Assembly (NCBI RefSeq): GCF_009834915.1
Contig: NZ_WVHS01000003.1
Location: 496,001-560,000, forward strand
Origin: Hufsiella ginkgonis
GTDB lineage: Bacteria; Bacteroidota; Bacteroidia; Sphingobacteriales; Sphingobacteriaceae
Length of the DNA: 64,000 bases
Reading direction: 5' to 3'
Shown here piece by piece: positions 2,801 through 10,557 of this stretch. How positions within the stretch are numbered: the first letter of the stretch is position 1; each line of letters starts with the position of its first letter. Under the pieces are notes generated by a model. It was not told the DNA's origin, did no database searches, and saw nothing but the letters and a program-made list of their open reading frames with translations. Made by a program: the position numbers and the translations under genes.

Positions 2801-3454
2801 TTATGCCCGGTAGATCTCGTTAAAGAACTCTCCGAGCTTTTTCTCATCCAGCTTACCGCCGGTGCGCACACTGCTGCAAAGATCCAGCCCGTACGGGCCA
2901 ACCTCATCCATCGCCCTGCGTACATTCCCGGCATTCAGGCCTCCGGCCAGGAAAACGGGTAGCTTTACGCTTTCGCGGATCATGCGGCTGATCTTCCAGT
3001 TATGAACGTTGCCCGTACCGCCCAGGATCTTTATTTCGAGGTTGGGATTGCCCGAGTCGAGCAAAAGCGCATCCACGTAAGTTGCGGCACGCTGGGCAAG
3101 TTCTATATCTTTTTCATCGAGTACGTGTACCACCTGCACGAGTTTAATAGCAGGCAGCTGTGCACGCAGCTCCCGGTATACCTGTTCATCCGGGTAATCC
3201 ACCAGCTGCAGGGTATTGGTACGGGTAAGATCGTGGTGAGCAATGATCCCGCCGGCGCCCGTTTCGCTGGTAAGCAGGAAAGTGGCTACCGCAGGAGGGG
3301 CGCCGGCGGCAATCTCGCGGATAAGGGTGTCGCTGATCACGCCTGGTCCCGAAGGCATCTTGCCAACAAGTCCAAGCGCCGATGCGCCATATTTTACCGC
3401 GATGGCGGCTTCATTTACAGAGCTGATGCAGCAGATCTTTACACGCGGGTACAT
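2801..3454 (-). CDS. Divergent phosphoribosylanthranilate isomerase (TrpF) homologue
   Basis: A 217-residue TIM-barrel protein. TrpF landmarks are present: an N-terminal VKIC with the catalytic-type Cys, LLLDSG carrying the candidate general-acid Asp, GGTGNVHNW, the LAGGLN phosphate loop, and a C-terminal GLDLCSSVRTGGKLDEKKL block. Several usual residues differ. The Gly after KIC is Cys (KICCI), the Arg of the SPR/SKR loop is missing (MPSGPGVIS), and QLHG has become QLVD. No other trp gene is nearby. The fold assignment is firm, but whether it isomerises phosphoribosylanthranilate is open. It ends convergently with the propeller gene. Confidence 0.75.
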   Translation of the reverse strand: MYPRVKICCISSVNEAAIAVKYGASALGLVGKMPSGPGVISDTLIREIAAGAPPAVATFLLTSETGAGGIIAHHDLTRTNTLQLVDYPDEQVYRELRAQLPAIKLVQVVHVLDEKDIELAQRAATYVDALLLDSGNPNLEIKILGGTGNVHNWKISRMIRESVKLPVFLAGGLNAGNVRRAMDEVGPYGLDLCSSVRTGGKLDEKKLGEFFNEIYRA

Positions 3455-3532: not shown

Positions 3533-3557
3533 ATAGTCTATAGGAATTATAGACTAT
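3533..3557 (+). promoter_or_regulatory. Perfect inverted-repeat operator candidate
   Basis: ATAGTCTATA (3533-3542) and its exact reverse complement TATAGACTAT (3548-3557) are separated by GGAAT. The site lies just upstream of a TAnnTTTG element and would cover the -33 region, so a dimeric repressor bound here could block the promoter of the riboswitch/cysteine desulfurase transcript. The regulator is not identified. Confidence 0.6.
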
Positions 3558-3562
3558 GTGAT

Positions 3563-3570
3563 TATATTTG
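3563..3570 (+). promoter_or_regulatory. Bacteroidota -7 promoter element
   Basis: TATATTTG fits the Bacteroidota -7 consensus TAnnTTTG. It lies 27 bases upstream of the SAM-I riboswitch P1 stem and 6 bases after the inverted repeat. A clean TTTG -33 element is not obvious. Confidence 0.5.
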
Positions 3571-3596
3571 CATCGCAATAGTTCTTTTATTTCATG

Positions 3597-3693
3597 CTTA
3601 TCCAGAAAGACGGAGGGAAAGGCCCTGTGAAGTCTTAGCAACCTGTAATGTACAAGGTGCTAATTCCTGTTCGCCATTGGCGAAAGAGATAAG
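3597..3693 (+). promoter_or_regulatory. SAM-I (S-box) riboswitch
   Basis: The complete S-box core is readable. P1 is CTTATC (3597-3602) with GATAAG (3688-3693). P2 contains AGAC/GTCT around the GGAGGGA and GGCCCTGTGAA blocks. The conserved TTAGCAACC is followed by the P3 arm and AAGGTGCTAATTCC. P4 is TTCGCC/GGCGAA (3670-3684). It lies about 80 nt before the cysteine desulfurase start. A GTTTTCC/GGGAAAC hairpin follows, but without a T-run, so control may be translational or via another fold. It should bind S-adenosylmethionine and lower expression when SAM is plentiful. Confidence 0.95.
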
Positions 3694-3773
3694 TTGGTGT
3701 TCGTTTTCCTTCCGGGAAACTACCAGCCTGCCACACCTGGCGCTTTTAAGATAAGCTTTAATTTTTCTACAAC

Positions 3774-4919
3774 ATGAAAGTTTATTTTGACAATGCCGCC
3801 ACCACACCACTTGATCGCGAAGTATTTGAAGCGATGGAACCGTACTTGTTCGGGAATTTCGGAAATCCCTCGTCCGCACATGCGCATGGACGCGAAGCGC
3901 GCATAGCCATCGAAAGGTCGCGCGCCACCATTGCCGGGCTGCTGGGCACTGCTTCCGCGAATATCATTTTTACGTCGGGAGGTACAGAAGGCGATAATAC
4001 CGCCATTCTTTCAGGCATTCGCCGGCATAGGATCCGGTTGGCGATCACCACGCCGTTCGAGCACCATGCCGTGCTTAATACCTTACGCTCGCTGGAACAG
4101 AAAGGGGAGATAAGGCTGGTCTTGCTTCAGCATGATGATGCGGGGAACCTTTCGCTCACGCACCTGGAGACGCTGCTTGCCGGGAACGAGCGCGCTTTTG
4201 TTTCCGTTATGCACGGGAACAACGAAACGGGTAACCTGCACAACCTCGAAGCGATCGGCGCCCTGTGCCGGCAATACGACGCGGTGTTCCATTCGGATAC
4301 CGTGCAAACCATGGGGCACTGTTGGCTAGACCCGCAAAAGCTTCACCTCGATTACCTGGTAGGTTCGGCACATAAATTTCATGGCCCGAAAGGAGTGGGG
4401 TTTCTCTATAATTCCGGCAAAGCCGATGTGCTGCCGTTGTTATTAGGCGGGTCGCAGGAAAAGGCGCAACGGGGAGGTACCGAAAATGTATCAGGGATCG
4501 TTGGATTGGCCAGGGCGCTCGAGATCGCTTATCGCGATATTGAGGCAGACAGGCAGCATATCCAGTCGCTGAAAAATAGGATGACGGCCCGGCTGACTTC
4601 GCGGATAGCAGACGTTCAGTTTAATGGGAATGCCTTGTTAGAAGATAAAAGCCTGTATACCATCTTAAGTGTATCATTGCCAAAAACAAGCGTCCCTGTA
4701 TTAACGCACCTGGATCAGCATTTTATTTCGGCATCTGGCGGAAGTGCGTGTACCAGCCATTCCGCATCGCGCTCGCACGTGCTGCAGGCGCTGAACTTTG
4801 ATTTTGAACGCACCGCCGTGAGGTTTTCTTTCAGCAAACACAATACTACGGCTGAAGTAGATCATGTGGCAGATACGCTGGCGGAGGCGTTTAACTGGAA
4901 GTATGCTAAAGCAGGCTAG
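3774..4919 (+). CDS. Cysteine desulfurase-like class V aminotransferase (NifS/IscS family)
   Basis: A 381-residue PLP enzyme expected to take sulfur from cysteine, leaving alanine and an enzyme persulfide. The N-terminal YFDNAATTPLD, the PLP-binding Lys201 in SAHKFHGPKGVGFLY, the RGGTEN loop and the catalytic Cys326 in GGSACTSHSASRSHVL are all present, at normal family length. It stands alone: no iscU, suf or thiI is adjacent. The leader holds a SAM-I riboswitch and an operator-like palindrome, which suggests a role in sulfur amino acid metabolism rather than general Fe-S assembly. Activity on selenocysteine or another sulfur donor cannot be excluded. Confidence 0.92.
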   Translation: MKVYFDNAATTPLDREVFEAMEPYLFGNFGNPSSAHAHGREARIAIERSRATIAGLLGTASANIIFTSGGTEGDNTAILSGIRRHRIRLAITTPFEHHAVLNTLRSLEQKGEIRLVLLQHDDAGNLSLTHLETLLAGNERAFVSVMHGNNETGNLHNLEAIGALCRQYDAVFHSDTVQTMGHCWLDPQKLHLDYLVGSAHKFHGPKGVGFLYNSGKADVLPLLLGGSQEKAQRGGTENVSGIVGLARALEIAYRDIEADRQHIQSLKNRMTARLTSRIADVQFNGNALLEDKSLYTILSVSLPKTSVPVLTHLDQHFISASGGSACTSHSASRSHVLQALNFDFERTAVRFSFSKHNTTAEVDHVADTLAEAFNWKYAKAG

Positions 4920-4961: not shown

Positions 4962-5525
4962 CTACGCCGTATTCTTTAAACAAACCCTCAGGTATTTCAG
5001 CGCGACCGTGATCTGGTTCTCCACCGACCTTTTCGAGATGCTGAGCCGCTCCGCGATCTCCTTGTTAGAGAGATGTTCTTTACGGCTCAGGAAAAAGATC
5101 TCCTGGCAGCGTTTGGGCAGCAATTTCAACTTATCGTCGATCGCGCTCTCGAGGTCGTGGTAAAGCATCTTTTCCTGGCCGGTATTGATGGCGCTCAACG
5201 TTATGCTTTGCTTTAGCAGGCTTACGTCTTCCCGGTATTCGAGCGCGGACCTCTTGCAGCGTTTAAGATAAGTATATACCTGGTACCTCGTGGCGGCCAC
5301 CAAATATCGTTCGAAATCCAGGACGACGAGGTGTTTTCGCTTTTCCCAGATGTTTACAAACAGGTCGTGCACCACTTCGTCGCAGGCAGCGTGATCTTTT
5401 GTGTATCGTAATGCGGTTTTATAGAGCCTTAACCAATGCCGTTCAAATAAAACGGTAAAGGCCCGGTAGTCGTCCGAGATAATTAAGGTCCATAATTCGG
5501 CATCGTTCAGTGAACTTATAGCCAT
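4962..5525 (-). CDS. ECF-type RNA polymerase sigma factor
   Basis: A 187-residue sigma-70 family protein of the Bacteroidota FecI/RpoE-like type. Region 2 is seen in YRAFTVLFERHWLRLYKTAL and CDEVVHDLFVNIWEKR. Region 4 is the C-terminal helix-turn-helix with LSNKEIAERLSISKRSVENQI. It directs RNA polymerase to a specialised promoter set. It is divergent from, and shares a 120-bp intergenic region with, the putative membrane anti-sigma at 5645. No TonB receptor adjoins the pair, so the signal is unknown. Confidence 0.92.
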   Translation of the reverse strand: MAISSLNDAELWTLIISDDYRAFTVLFERHWLRLYKTALRYTKDHAACDEVVHDLFVNIWEKRKHLVVLDFERYLVAATRYQVYTYLKRCKRSALEYREDVSLLKQSITLSAINTGQEKMLYHDLESAIDDKLKLLPKRCQEIFFLSRKEHLSNKEIAERLSISKRSVENQITVALKYLRVCLKNTA

Positions 5526-6141: not shown

Positions 6142-7563
6142 TTGAAAAGAAGAACGTTCCTCCAGCAATCCGGTCTGCTCACCGGGAGCCTTTTGCTCAA
6201 TCAGTCGTACTCGTATGCTAAAACGATTTATCCTGAGTTTCCCGTTGTGCGTACAGCAGTGGCCGGGCGGAACTTCAGCAGCCGGTCTGTTGAAGCGGCC
6301 ATCGTCGAATTCCAGTCGAAAGTAAAAGACCCCGAGCTTGGCTGGCTGTTTAACAATTGCTTTCCCAATACGCTCGATACCACGGTTACCCACACGCAAA
6401 AGAACGGCCGCCCGGATACGTACGTGATCACCGGCGATATCGATGCTATGTGGCTACGCGATTCAAGCGCGCAGGTATGGCCTTACCTGGCATTTATCAA
6501 AAAAGATCAGCCTTTACAGCAATTGATCGCCGGCGTGATTAATCACCAGACCGCTTGCGTACTCAAAGACCCGTACGCCAACGCATTTTATAACGACCCT
6601 GCCAAAGTGGGCGAGTGGGCGAAAGACCATACCAAAATGCAGCCAGGTATCCACGAACGCAAGTGGGAGATCGATTCGCTGTGCTACCCCATCCGCCTTG
6701 CGTATAAATACTGGAAGCTCACCGGCGATACCGCCCCGTTCGATGCGCAATGGAAACAGGCGGTTACGCTTACCCTCAAAACATTTAAAGAACAGCAGCG
6801 TAAAAATGGCGATGGCCCGTACTCGTTCCAGCGTACTACTTCCTGGGCTACGGATGGTGTGCCGATGAACGGTTATGGATACCCTGTTAAACCGGTCGGG
6901 CTTATCTGCTCTTCCTTCCGTCCGAGTGATGACGCCACGGTGTACTCTTACCTGGTGCCGTCGAATTTCTTCGCGGCGGTAAGTCTTAAACAGGCGGCAG
7001 AAATGGTGAAAACCATCAGTAACGACCTGCCTTTGTCTGCAGAGCTTACCGCATTGGCCGTAGAAGTAGCTGCGGCCCTGAAAAAGCATGCGGTGATCAA
7101 CCATCCGCAGTATGGCGTGATCTACGCCTACGAAGTAAATGGTTTTGGCAGTTATAACCTGATGGACGACGCCAACGTGCCAAGCCTGCTTAGCCTGCCG
7201 TACCTGGGTGCGGTGCCCATGAACGATCCCATCTACCGCAATACCCGTAAAATGCTGCTTTCGCTGAATAATCCCTTCTTTTTTAAAGGAAAAGCGGGCG
7301 AGGGCATCGGCGGCCCGCATGCAGGGAAAGACATGATCTGGCCGCTGGGCATTATTATGCGCGGGTTAACCAGCACCAGCGACACCGAGATCAAGGCATG
7401 TATCGCCGCGCTGAAAGCAAGTCACGCGGACACCGGTTTTATGCACGAATCGTTTCATAAGGAAGACGCTAAACGCTTTACCCGCAAGTGGTTCGCGTGG
7501 GCAAATACGCTGTTCGGCGAATTCCTTTGGGAAACGTACCAGGCGAAACCGCATTTGCTTTAA
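6142..7563 (+). CDS. Glycoside hydrolase family 125 (exo-alpha-1,6-mannosidase-like)
   Basis: 473 residues with a Tat-type signal (KRRTFLQQSGLL), so it is exported folded. GH125 (former DUF1237) enzymes remove terminal alpha-1,6-mannose. Family motifs include DIDAMWLRDSSAQVWPYL, the HERKWEIDSLCYPIRLAY block, SSFRPSDDATVYSYLVPSNF and, near the end, HESFH. No ATG precedes the twin-arginine signal, so TTG at 6142, after AACAGG, is the best start. It sits beside an isomerase and a PL11 lyase and probably clips mannose from plant or fungal glycans entering the same locus. Confidence 0.92.
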   Translation: MKRRTFLQQSGLLTGSLLLNQSYSYAKTIYPEFPVVRTAVAGRNFSSRSVEAAIVEFQSKVKDPELGWLFNNCFPNTLDTTVTHTQKNGRPDTYVITGDIDAMWLRDSSAQVWPYLAFIKKDQPLQQLIAGVINHQTACVLKDPYANAFYNDPAKVGEWAKDHTKMQPGIHERKWEIDSLCYPIRLAYKYWKLTGDTAPFDAQWKQAVTLTLKTFKEQQRKNGDGPYSFQRTTSWATDGVPMNGYGYPVKPVGLICSSFRPSDDATVYSYLVPSNFFAAVSLKQAAEMVKTISNDLPLSAELTALAVEVAAALKKHAVINHPQYGVIYAYEVNGFGSYNLMDDANVPSLLSLPYLGAVPMNDPIYRNTRKMLLSLNNPFFFKGKAGEGIGGPHAGKDMIWPLGIIMRGLTSTSDTEIKACIAALKASHADTGFMHESFHKEDAKRFTRKWFAWANTLFGEFLWETYQAKPHLL

Positions 7564-7709
7564 AACGCGCTACGTATTGCTCGTAGCTGCCCGGCTGGAA
7601 AGTATCGCCGGCTTTTTCGAAAGTTAAAACGCGGCGATCAATAGGAAATCCGCCGTCATGTCGTATTTTGCAGCGCTCAACCAATAGTCACTGCATAAAT
7701 TAAATCGAT

Positions 7710-8624
7710 ATGACACTTTTCGAACTTTCCCGTCGCGACTTCCTCGCCCAGTTAAGCATCCTAGCCGCGTCGGCTGCCATCAAGCCGTCCACAGAACTGT
7801 TGCTCCCGGCTGGCGGTCCCATTAAATTCGGTTATTCTGCCATTACCTGGGGCGGAAACGATGTGCAGGCCATAAAAGATATCGCCTCTTTGGGTTTTAC
7901 CGGTATCCAGCTCAGGGCAAATGCTTACCAGGAATACGGCCAGAAAGTAGACGAACTGAAGAAAATGATAGCCGACGCGAAACTTGAACTTGTAATGTTT
8001 TCTTCGGGTAACGCAAATGTGAATACGCCTGATGACCAGGCACAGATCGCCCCGCACGTTACCCATGCGAAATTTGTGAAAGCGCTCGGCGGGAAACGCA
8101 TCCAGGTGACTAATTCCGCGCGTCCCAAATCGGGTGAAGTGGCAGAAGCCGACCTGGTAAAATATGGCAACATGCTTACCGTGATCGGCAAACAGACAGC
8201 CGCCATCGGCATCGAAACTACCTACCATAATCACATGGGGCAACTTGGGCAGACACCGGCAGAGGTAGACACGATCCTGGCGAACACCGATCCCAAATAT
8301 GTGGGTTTCCTGCTTGATGTGGCGCATTACCAGCAAGGGGGCGGCGATCCGGCGGCGGCCATCCTTAAATATAAAGACCGGATCCACTGCCTGCACATTA
8401 AAGATGTGAAAACCACCAACGACAAAGGCGGTTACCAGTTCGTTGAACTTGGCCAGGGCCGTGTGGACTTCCCGGCGATCTTTGACGCCCTTAAAAAGAT
8501 CAAGTTTAAAGGTTATACCGTGGTAGAGCTTGACGGCGTACCGGTTAAAGGCCGTACTCCCCTGGAAAGCGGGCAAATGGCCAAGGACTACCTGAAAGAT
8601 AAGCTTAAATTCAGCCTTAGCTAA
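7710..8624 (+). CDS. Tat-exported sugar phosphate isomerase/epimerase-like protein (AP endonuclease family 2 fold)
   Basis: 304 residues. The N-terminal SRRDFLAQLSILAASAA is a Tat-type signal, followed by a TIM barrel of the xylose isomerase-like/IolE class. Metal-site motifs are visible: ETTYHNHMGQ, LLDVAHYQQGG, CLHIKDV and VVELDGV. The likely reaction is isomerisation or dehydration of a free sugar or inositol-like compound in the periplasm. It ends 13 bp before the PL11 lyase and is probably cotranscribed with it, so a rhamnogalacturonan-derived substrate is possible. The substrate is not known. Confidence 0.82.
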   Translation: MTLFELSRRDFLAQLSILAASAAIKPSTELLLPAGGPIKFGYSAITWGGNDVQAIKDIASLGFTGIQLRANAYQEYGQKVDELKKMIADAKLELVMFSSGNANVNTPDDQAQIAPHVTHAKFVKALGGKRIQVTNSARPKSGEVAEADLVKYGNMLTVIGKQTAAIGIETTYHNHMGQLGQTPAEVDTILANTDPKYVGFLLDVAHYQQGGGDPAAAILKYKDRIHCLHIKDVKTTNDKGGYQFVELGQGRVDFPAIFDALKKIKFKGYTVVELDGVPVKGRTPLESGQMAKDYLKDKLKFSLS

Positions 8625-8637
8625 ACGCTCGCCGGGC

Positions 8638-10557
8638 ATGCGCTTGCTAAGAATACTGTTGGTGCAGGGCCTCCTTTGCCCGTTGTTCCTCTCCGCCCAA
8701 CGGCAGATGGAGTATCTCGACCGCGGGCTGGTAGCCGTTAACCAGGGGAATGGACGGGTGTTTCTAAGTTGGCGCCTGCTTGCCACCGACCCGGAAGGGA
8801 TCGCGTTTAACCTGTACCGTGTGATAAATGGAAAAGCCGCCCGTTTAAATACACGACCGCTTGCCGGCGCTACCAATTACGCGGATTTAGGGGTGGCGAA
8901 CAACGCCCCGGTTTCCTGGTTCGTAAAACCTGTACTGAAAGGTGCGGAGCAAGCCACTCAGGCAACGTTTACCCTGCCTGCCAACGCACCCGCGAGGCAG
9001 TACCTGCCCGTGCCCATCCAGCCTCCTCCTCCCGGGGAAATCGGGGGACAAAAGTTCACTTACACGGCCAACGATGTGAGTGTAGGCGACCTGGATGGCG
9101 ACGGCCGGTACGAGATCGTCCTGAAATGGGAGCCTTCCAACAGCCGTAATCCCCCGCAACCCGGTGTTACCGGTCATGACCTCATCGATGCATATAAACT
9201 GGACGGTACGCGGCTTTGGCGCATCGATCTTGGAAAAAATATCCGTGCGGGCGCCGCTTACACTCAGTTCCTGGTGTATGATTTTGATGGCGATGGCAAG
9301 GCCGAAATGATCTGTAAAACAGCCGACGGGTCCATCGATGGCGCCGGGAAGCCTATCGGCGACGCTACTAAAGACTGGCGCTCGCTCGATGACCCTCAAA
9401 GTCCGTTTTACGGGAAAATAGTGACCGGTCCCGAATACCTTACCGTATTTAACGGTATGACCGGGGCTGCAATGGCTACCGCCGGTTACCTGCCCGACCG
9501 TTACCCGCTGGATGGCTGGGGCGGCATTGGCGGCAACGGCGGCAACGATGTGACCGGGGGGCGCCCCGACCGCTTTACCGCTTGCGTGGCTTACCTGGAC
9601 GGGGTGCACCCCAGTGCGGTGTTTGTACGCGGCTGGTATGGACGTACCGCGCTTACCGCCTACGATTTTAAAGCAAATAAGCTTACTGCCCGATGGCTCT
9701 TCGATTCGAAAGACGGCAAAAACCCGTACTCAGGCATGGCCAACCACAACCTGTCGGTAGCCGATGTGGACGATGATGGCAAAGACGAGATCTGTGTAGG
9801 CGCCATGACCGTTGACGATGACGGCCGGGGCCTGTACACCACCGGTCTGCGGCACGGCGATGCGCTCCACCTCACTGCAATGGACCCTGATCACCCTGCC
9901 ATGAAGCAGGTTTTCGGCATCCACGAAAATGAAGAAAAAACCATTGCTTTAAAAACACCCGGGGTAGCGATGTTTAACGCAAAAACAGGCGCGGTGTTAT
10001 GGTCGCTCGGGGAAAGCGAAGACGTAGGGCGCGGCGTGGCGGCCGACATTGATCCCACGCACCCGGGCTTCGAAAACTGGGGCGGTCCGGGCGGCTTGAG
10101 AGACCTGCACGGCAAAACGATTACCCCGAAGGTGCCTTCGTCTGCCAATTTCCTGGTTTGGTGGGATGGCGATCTTACCCGCGAACTGCTGGATAAGAAC
10201 CGCATAGATAAATGGGATTGGAAAACCGAAACTACCGTAAACCTGCTTACCGCGGAAGGATCCGTATCCAATAACGGCACAAAGGCTACGCCCTGCCTGA
10301 GCGCCGACCTATTCGGCGACTGGCGTGAAGAGGTGATCTGGCGCACGCCCGACAATACGGAGCTCCGGATATACACCACTACCATCCCTACGGATTTCAG
10401 GTGTTACACCTTAATGCACGATCCGCAATATCGCCTCGGCGTCGCCTGGCAAAACACGAGTTATAACCAGCCCCCGCATACCGGTTTTTATTTCGGGTAT
10501 GGCATGGTACAGCCGCCAAAACCACGGATCGTGATAGTAAGAGCAGGTAAAAAGTAA
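8638..10557 (+). CDS. Rhamnogalacturonan lyase, polysaccharide lyase family 11
   Basis: 639 residues with a signal peptide ending near LFLSAQ. The N-terminal fibronectin-like part (QMEYLDRGLVAVNQGNGRVFLSWR) and the eight-bladed calcium propeller are typical of YesW/YesX-type PL11 lyases. The propeller contains DLDGDGRYE, DFDGDGKAE, DVDDDGKDE and the long CKTADGSIDGAGKPIGD segment. The length matches the family. It cleaves the rhamnose-galacturonate backbone by beta-elimination and would supply substrates for the GH28 enzyme upstream. Endo or exo action cannot be told from sequence. Confidence 0.95.
   Translation: MRLLRILLVQGLLCPLFLSAQRQMEYLDRGLVAVNQGNGRVFLSWRLLATDPEGIAFNLYRVINGKAARLNTRPLAGATNYADLGVANNAPVSWFVKPVLKGAEQATQATFTLPANAPARQYLPVPIQPPPPGEIGGQKFTYTANDVSVGDLDGDGRYEIVLKWEPSNSRNPPQPGVTGHDLIDAYKLDGTRLWRIDLGKNIRAGAAYTQFLVYDFDGDGKAEMICKTADGSIDGAGKPIGDATKDWRSLDDPQSPFYGKIVTGPEYLTVFNGMTGAAMATAGYLPDRYPLDGWGGIGGNGGNDVTGGRPDRFTACVAYLDGVHPSAVFVRGWYGRTALTAYDFKANKLTARWLFDSKDGKNPYSGMANHNLSVADVDDDGKDEICVGAMTVDDDGRGLYTTGLRHGDALHLTAMDPDHPAMKQVFGIHENEEKTIALKTPGVAMFNAKTGAVLWSLGESEDVGRGVAADIDPTHPGFENWGGPGGLRDLHGKTITPKVPSSANFLVWWDGDLTRELLDKNRIDKWDWKTETTVNLLTAEGSVSNNGTKATPCLSADLFGDWREEVIWRTPDNTELRIYTTTIPTDFRCYTLMHDPQYRLGVAWQNTSYNQPPHTGFYFGYGMVQPPKPRIVIVRAGKK

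Follow-up and report, generated by a model that had tools for sequence, protein, structure and literature searches.

A palindromic dyad and a SAM-I riboswitch mark a probable sulfur-scarcity regulon of a cysteine desulfurase and tRNA-Cys genes in Sphingobacteriaceae

Why should a cysteine desulfurase that stands alone be preceded by both a palindrome and a SAM-I riboswitch, a leader that responds to S-adenosylmethionine (SAM)? Such a gene is found in Hufsiella ginkgonis (Sphingobacteriaceae), within a stretch of 64,000 nucleotides that we call the window (G000:C19:496001-560000 of a 5.2-Mb genome in 25 contigs). An initial annotation, made from the letters alone, had proposed that the desulfurase is under dual control and that a sulfur-mobilising step is thereby tied to SAM levels. 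Here and in relatives, the dyad and the aptamer occur in a fixed order, and the pair is restricted to genes outside methionine synthesis. Judged from this pattern, the desulfurase probably belongs to a small regulon for sulfur scarcity in which two gates are stacked: a regulator that binds the dyad, most likely an Rrf2 protein, and the SAM-I leader. The larger part of the finding lies beyond the window, where the pair appears to mark a regulon that includes genes for the cysteine transfer RNA (tRNA-Cys). The features, in rightward order from the dyad to the end of the gene, are:

3533..3557, no strand: putative operator, a perfect 10-bp inverted repeat within a 25-bp dyad (from shuffles, and from recurrence in the same genome and the family)
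3563..3570, + strand: TATATTTG, a TAnnTTTG-type -7 element 5 nt past the dyad (from the sequence, and from the spacing in relatives)
3595..3695, + strand: SAM-I (S-box) riboswitch aptamer (Rfam RF00162, 89.5 bits)
3596..3602, + strand: GCTTATC, the 5' strand of helix P1 (from the sequence and the covariance match)
3688..3694, + strand: GATAAGT, the 3' strand of P1 and its partner in the SAM-bound form (from the sequence and the covariance match)
3750..3756, + strand: GATAAGC, which could pair with the P1 5' strand instead and probably belongs to the expression platform (from an unconstrained fold)
3774..4919, + strand: cysteine desulfurase of NifS/IscS type, 381 aa, a single gene starting with ATG at 3774 (from the open reading frame, profile searches and a tree)

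The elements described by the initial annotation hold up. The palindrome is exact, ATAGTCTATA-GGAAT-TATAGACTAT; even with up to three mismatches allowed, the 64 kb contain no other copy, and 100 dinucleotide shuffles gave none. The element that follows it matches TAnnTTTG, which we take to be the Bacteroidota -7 element. The S-box is complete, with a covariance match that spans model positions 1-108 and scores well above the gathering score of 44.4 bits.

Our first question was whether the dyad belongs with the riboswitch elsewhere in the family. RF00162 is present in 98 of 101 family genomes, and we examined 93 matches, a part of those listed (30 from the initial loci, 60 taken by E-value order and the other 3 from the H. 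ginkgonis genome; a match near a contig end in G059 was left out). For each, the 110 nt upstream of the aptamer were scanned with the family dyad consensus WWARTCTAYN7RTAGAYTWW, mismatches being counted against the consensus and the expectation taken from shuffles. A dyad with at most two mismatches was found upstream of 24 of the 93 (0.37 expected), and one with at most three upstream of 31 (2.6 expected). The split by gene class is nearly complete: at three mismatches, 31/32 riboswitches before non-methionine genes have the dyad vs. 0/61 before methionine-synthesis genes (Fisher p ~7e-24, a value inflated by ignoring relatedness, as the 31 loci come from 21 genomes). Gene classes are BLAST clusters whose representatives were named by profile, with some fragments and copies below cut-off, and they divide as follows:

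Methionine units, by first gene: O-acetylhomoserine sulfhydrylase/cystathionine-synthase-like 37, metH 9, homoserine dehydrogenase 5, metX 5, metE 5; dyads 0/61
Non-methionine units, with dyad: TonB/SusC 12/12, desulfurase 8/8, peroxiredoxin 5/5, TlpA/ResA-like 3/3, PA-domain protein 1/1, lone tRNA-Cys 2/2

In the 32nd non-methionine unit (L164, a DUF4833 protein) the order is dyad (2 mismatches), tRNA-Cys, SAM-I, gene. At 19 sites the dyad ends 3-6 nt ahead of the TAnnTTTG element and at 11 sites 12-15 nt ahead of it, with one more site lacking a readable element; because of this spacing the dyad would cover the -33 region. These counts support the proposal of dual control and of a sulfur step tied to SAM.

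The H. ginkgonis genome repeats the pattern on a small scale. It has four SAM-I riboswitches, before the desulfurase, a SusC receptor (L002; SusC profile above cut-off), metX (L003; metX profile below cut-off) and metH (L004; named by eye), and the first two have the dyad while the metX and metH leaders do not. With at most one mismatch the consensus gave five sites genome-wide vs. none for a reversed control: at the window desulfurase, at the SAM-I/SusC unit, at a TonB receptor leftward from C12:1064899, before a tandem tRNA-Cys pair called by ARAGORN after C20:481016, and at C20:194484, where no sulfur gene was evident by eye. A third tRNA-Cys, the housekeeping copy at C12:791266, has no dyad. 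Among named relatives of the desulfurase (the best 80 of 593 loci, each scanned for Rfam families), the nearest are from Mucilaginibacter and Pedobacter, and 8 loci have a same-strand SAM-I upstream. Six of these, five Mucilaginibacter and one Pedobacter, have it directly before the desulfurase, and 31-45 nt ahead of the aptamer each has a dyad with 0-2 mismatches (two or fewer occur in 0.7% of shuffles). The palindrome thus recurs near sulfur genes of relatives, as the initial annotation had expected. The remaining two, from Dyadobacter (Spirosomataceae; L072:1457-1549 and L082:1447-1539), show the order SAM-I, TlpA-like gene, desulfurase, and bear on whether the pairing of elements predates the family. 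Also recurrent beside dyads is a TlpA-like protein whose N-terminal part is of the GNWRG(V/I)FK type (L125:194-1432 (-), L072:1706-2959), encoded either divergently from a TonB gene or within an operon under SAM-I (named by eye, but L072 by Pfam AhpC-TSA).

The leaders of the two gene classes differ as well. An unconstrained fold of 3595-3776 (-59 kcal/mol, z -3.84, with 1 of 200 shuffles as good) pairs the P1 5' strand at 3596-3602 with GATAAGC at 3750-3756, which stands near the desulfurase start codon. Strong complements to the P1 5' strand, lying further downstream, are enriched among the 32 non-methionine leaders (mean score 15.4 vs. 11.9 in shuffles; 13/32 with p ≤ 0.05) and not in the 61 methionine leaders (12.66 vs. 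12.52; 4/61 with p ≤ 0.05). Terminator-like hairpins were found in 8/32 non-methionine vs. 3/61 methionine leaders, at least one of the eight (L130) lying past the gene start. The clearest belong to five TonB leaders (L134, L135, L136, L138, L175), and their stem contains CTGATTT, complementary to the P1 3' side (by eye). The aptamers also begin differently, mostly with ACTTATC(C/A)AGA in non-methionine leaders and mostly with GATTTATAAAGA in methionine leaders. The window leader would be shut off either by termination or at translation. Weaker second SAM-I matches lie near the first at L023:4717-4829 (57.5 bits) and L164:2070-2167 (53.6 bits).

What binds the dyad? The initial annotation had suggested a second regulator of Rrf2 or sulfur type. 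The genome has a single Rrf2 gene, preceded by a gene of sulfite/nitrite reductase type and a CysG-N (siroheme) gene. Its product matches PF02082 (117 bits, cut-off 30) and exceeds the cut-off of the NCBIfam Rrf2 superfamily model, and the solved chains closest to it are those of an Rrf2 protein (4cic) and of CymR; against the equivalog models for CymR (72.3 bits, cut-off 195) and IscR (69.6, cut-off 207.55) it falls short. Four cysteines are invariant in 31 Rrf2 proteins, which suggests a metal or an iron-sulfur (Fe-S) cluster. We collected 30 Rrf2 loci as the best match per genome in 30 genomes, with orthology unchecked. At 8 of these a dyad with at most two mismatches lies 3' of the Rrf2 gene, before the next operon, and nowhere else in the loci. 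It is within ~80 nt in L219, L221, L223, L224, L225 and L228, and ~760 nt off, just before sulfite reductase, in L227 and L229. The gene after the dyad is SUMT-like (by eye) in L219, L223, L224 and L225, sulfite-reductase-like in L227, L228 and L229, and of no clear type in L221. In G090 the Rrf2 gene has a divergent tRNA-Cys, with the dyad between the two, and an Rrf2 gene is present in 21/21 genomes with a dyad-SAM-I pair vs. 85/101 overall. The 25-bp dyad has the size of IscR-type sites; the IscR type-1 site differs in sequence. By association, then, Rrf2 is the likely regulator, a prediction that retains the Rrf2 part of the earlier suggestion through the sulfite reductase and siroheme neighbours and the 8 loci with a dyad. 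A search of the literature for Rrf2 with Bacteroidetes and sulfur, cysteine or riboswitch topics found nothing, subscription papers being mostly outside the search.

Several observations weigh against a two-gate regulon under Rrf2. At 22 of the 30 Rrf2 loci there is no dyad within two mismatches. The sulfite reductase/Rrf2 operon of H. ginkgonis itself has a poor one, with three mismatches and overlapping the start codon, and Rrf2 genes are widespread anyway. The window leader, searched for an intrinsic terminator, has no clear one. Genome-wide, a stricter palindrome (at most two mismatches) occurs in 62/301 family genomes, but the reversed control pattern also matched often; at several of 29 such loci inspected, the site lies inside a gene or between genes and no link to sulfur can be seen, and SAM-I was found in just 2 of 20 scanned loci. 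We dropped this count as proof by itself; position relative to SAM-I or tRNA-Cys is what parted the dyad signal from background. In the two Dyadobacter loci the standard 110-nt stretch holds no dyad (7 and 5 mismatches), and a shared 2-mismatch site runs into the start of the aptamer, which makes it weak evidence; we withdrew the view that Dyadobacter cleanly extends the dyad and SAM-I pair beyond the family.

A different regulator, of LysR, CRP/Fnr or other helix-turn-helix type, might bind the dyad, with Rrf2 just happening to stand near sulfur genes. The 22 loci without a dyad fit this reading, and the search for regulators covered the Rrf2 family. However, where Rrf2 loci do have the dyad it stands before the following sulfur operon, once it lies between Rrf2 and tRNA-Cys, no dyad-SAM-I genome lacks an Rrf2 gene, and the size of the site is that of IscR-type sites. 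We regard another regulator as improbable, though a serious candidate.

In the proposed regulon, the first gate would act at transcription start, where a regulator, most likely the four-cysteine Rrf2 protein, binds the 25-bp dyad over the -33 region and probably represses, sensing Fe-S or cysteine status. The second gate would be the leader, the aptamer shutting the transcript off when SAM is plentiful. When sulfur or SAM runs short, the regulator would leave the dyad and the leader would open. TonB/SusC receptors may then import sulfur compounds and so supply part of the cysteine, redox proteins may handle thiols, and the desulfurase may free sulfur from cysteine, so that the SAM-I-controlled O-acetylhomoserine sulfhydrylase could rebuild homocysteine, methionine and SAM. 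The divergent extra tRNA-Cys genes would be under the same gates and induced in the same state.

The enzyme itself is a fresh member of already known kinds. As first described, it is a lone gene under the S-box: a PRAI-like (TrpF) gene (2801-3454, -) is divergent from it and a sigma-70/ECF gene (4962-5525, -) convergent with it, so a one-gene transcript is most likely. NifS is the top NCBIfam profile (354.7 bits), yet the protein lies under the equivalog cut-offs for NifS (530.75), DndA (280.7 bits, cut-off 480) and IscS (260.9, cut-off 643.2). Pfam Aminotran_5 (PF00266) matches at 226.8 bits (cut-off 21.5). The translation contains, by eye, GSACTSH and AHKFHG, which we take to be the catalytic-loop cysteine motif and the pyridoxal phosphate lysine motif. 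That it is the housekeeping IscS could be ruled out: the genome has an iscS-iscU-iscA operon elsewhere (its last two genes named by eye) as well as another NifS-like gene, 52% identical to the window desulfurase and without SAM-I, and a tree parts them. In that tree (89 sequences, quick method) the 14 rows labelled SAM-I require one label change vs. 13.3 in shuffles, with a support of just 39 for the single SAM-I clade; the Dyadobacter rows (labelled 'no', as they were unscanned then) lie with them in one starred set of 28 rows. These sequences are compatible with one origin of the SAM-I-linked desulfurases, with the H. ginkgonis paralogue apart. The literature on riboswitches with cysteine desulfurases in Bacteroidetes yielded nothing in a search that mostly excluded subscription papers. 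Around the locus, genes of pectin/rhamnogalacturonan-type and other sugar degradation lie at 68-2751 and 6142-10557 (mostly by eye). The PRAI-like gene scores far under every NCBIfam PRAI cut-off listed and is perhaps no tryptophan gene.

Could the enzyme instead be a spare sulfur donor for Fe-S clusters or tRNA thiolation, with SAM control acting indirectly, through methylthiolation and thiolation needs and not methionine making? Desulfurases do feed tRNA thiolation, and the regulon, at times even the operon, also contains tRNA-Cys genes. But the genome is already provided with isc genes and the second paralogue free of SAM-I, and the receptors and redox proteins of the regulon point to sulfur supply, which leaves the spare donor a doubtful reading that still deserves attention.

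A reading of the dyad as no operator but a strong, AT-rich variant of the promoter is very improbable. It does overlap the -33 region, at two spacings to TAnnTTTG. However, at up to three mismatches it is absent from all 61 methionine SAM-I promoters, and of 44 housekeeping tRNA-Cys copies only 1 has a dyad within 300 nt at two mismatches (3 at three). Over 24 dyads, each position of TCTA is conserved in 23-24 and each position of TAGA in 20-24.

The regulon would reach beyond protein genes. A same-strand tRNA gene lies downstream of 8 of the 93 SAM-I riboswitches (in the fetched stretch, with opposite-strand tRNAs filtered out), and all eight are tRNA-Cys(GCA). In three genomes a lone tRNA-Cys follows the dyad and SAM-I (L196, L201, L314). 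In the available flanking DNA of L201 and L314 no same-strand gene of at least 80 aa follows the tRNA; L196 has a single same-strand frame of 86 aa, nested in a 334-aa opposite-strand frame and not a plausible gene. In L314 the SAM-I match directly before the tRNA (737-936) is 200 nt long on a 108-position model and therefore contains a large insert. Runs of 7 (L201) and 9 (L314) T residues lie just before the tRNA (by eye). Elsewhere, tRNA-Cys stands behind peroxiredoxin (L139, L150, L160, L165, L203 with two copies, L311) or behind the desulfurase (L131, with a 9-nt gap, and the named relatives L023 and L045), and in the named L040 a tandem pair runs the opposite way from the shared intergenic region. 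Without SAM-I, the dyad precedes tRNA-Cys in L007 (the H. ginkgonis pair), L252, L309, L312, L315, L318 and L319, and in L310 at 163 nt. In G205 a dyad (L128:1501-1525) lies ~216 nt before a tRNA-Met(CAT) gene (1742-1812), and a SAM-I scan of that locus gave none.

Most of these extra tRNAs belong to an unusual class. tRNA-Cys matches occur in 107/111 family genomes, and genomes with a match have a near-identical housekeeping tRNA-Cys that starts with GGTCG and has G1-C72 (list read by eye). By hand count there are 23 extra copies whose first base is A, from 22 genomes (20 A1.G72, 1 A1.A72, 2 A1-U72), and 5 extra copies starting with G. A dyad with at most three mismatches lies 5' in the transcription unit of 17 of the 23 A1-type copies; those without are in G054, G051, G109, G096, G018 and G083, the dyads near tRNA-Cys of G096, G109 and G051 being uncounted as they lie 3' of the tRNA or ~1 kb off. 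That the tRNA-Cys links are chance neighbours is scarcely credible: tRNA genes have neighbours of many kinds, but every same-strand tRNA downstream of a SAM-I is tRNA-Cys and most A1-type copies have the dyad in their own unit.

Over deduplicated loci the 1:72 pair is A.G in 22, A.A in 2, A-U in 3, G.G in 2 and G-C in 50 (a single A-C row is a mis-set 5' end), so that in relatives the A.G, A.A and G.G copies lack a Watson-Crick pair and the three A-U copies have one. In 21 of the 22 A.G tRNAs the other six acceptor pairs are intact, and U73 is present in all. By ARAGORN and Rfam the extra copies have the GCA anticodon, U73 and cloverleaf of tRNA-Cys, apart from a few degenerate copies that ARAGORN leaves uncalled or calls otherwise (L255, L313, L324); the anticodon and U73 give them cysteine identity. 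The first copy of the H. ginkgonis tandem pair has a Watson-Crick G1-C72; in its second copy (L007:1684-1754), as in that of L040 (2312-2384 (-)), the 3' acceptor strand is by eye one A too long, so that the acceptor stem of the H. ginkgonis copy is bulged. A strict A1.G72 tRNA-Cys pattern, which misses A1-type copies of other genera, found 6 of 395 genomes of the class, all in one genus. Two odd copies may be recorded here. L315:130-200 (-) is tRNA-Cys-like with A1.A72 and T37T38 in the anticodon loop, 28 nt downstream of a zero-mismatch dyad. L324:823-892 starts AGCCGGA, ends GGCGTC and is called tRNA-Phe by ARAGORN, and it resembles an altered A1-type tRNA-Cys. In 11/20 A1-type sequences vs. 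0/5 housekeeping types the D-loop contains GGATAGG, which is complementary to CTTATCC of the P1 5' strand; any pairing between the two is a lead, not a result.

A 1:72 mismatch weakens EF-Tu binding, and riboswitches are known as controllers of mRNAs. We tentatively suggest that the dyad and SAM-I switch on a dedicated second tRNA-Cys in SAM and sulfur shortage, and that its broken 1:72 pair makes it a poor EF-Tu client which may carry or sense cysteine outside ordinary elongation. Possible roles would be a charging sensor, a decoy, a donor to a non-ribosomal enzyme or a binder of the leaders of the regulon. According to one review, a 1:72 mismatch (C1.A72) is a hallmark of the bacterial initiator tRNA and favours formylation, and tRNA-fMet joins elongation via EF-Tu when formylation is deficient (PMC7949028); the mismatch is thus no proof of a non-elongator role. 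With a lone tRNA behind the aptamer in three genomes, tRNA supply would be a direct target of a metabolite sensor, which raises the question of what purpose a starvation-induced cysteine tRNA, mostly of a class with an initiator-like 1:72 defect, might serve. A literature search for a link between SAM riboswitches and tRNA-Cys or tRNA genes found none, subscription papers lying mostly outside it; another, on tRNA-Cys isoacceptors and desulfurase operons, gave only what is by its title a cancer review. We did not find described a regulon of riboswitch and operator that would also govern a distinct tRNA-Cys class, so its novelty is provisional. Sphingobacteriaceae in any case gain a candidate sulfur operator and a candidate regulator, both testable.

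How does this compare with known systems? Like other members of RF00162, the leader has a full aptamer with the consensus core and an expected SAM-off logic, and in several related leaders some bases of a P1 partner also belong to a terminator. Unlike them, it would govern a desulfurase (and, in its relatives, receptors and tRNA-Cys) instead of methionine genes, with a dyad upstream and with the second P1 5'-strand partner enriched in these leaders and not in those of methionine genes. The enzyme resembles group I NifS/IscS desulfurases in its best profile and active-site residues (by eye), but it scores below all the NCBIfam equivalog cut-offs listed, is a single gene outside isc, suf and nif operons, and groups with SAM-I-linked copies. 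The candidate regulator is akin to the CymR/IscR branch in its PF02082, superfamily and CymR-like chain matches; it differs in being under both equivalog cut-offs and in its own four-cysteine pattern. The extra tRNA-Cys resemble the bacterial initiator tRNA (PMC7949028) in that the acceptor stem is good except for a 1:72 pair that is not Watson-Crick, but have the GCA anticodon and U73 and lack the three-GC anticodon stem (by eye). Another parallel is the Xanthomonas campestris SAM-I leader, which is reported to sense uncharged tRNA-fMet (PMC7270179). Both link a SAM-I leader with a tRNA whose 1:72 pair is broken; there, however, the tRNA is the ligand of a methionine-gene leader, while here tRNA-Cys is the gene behind the leader.

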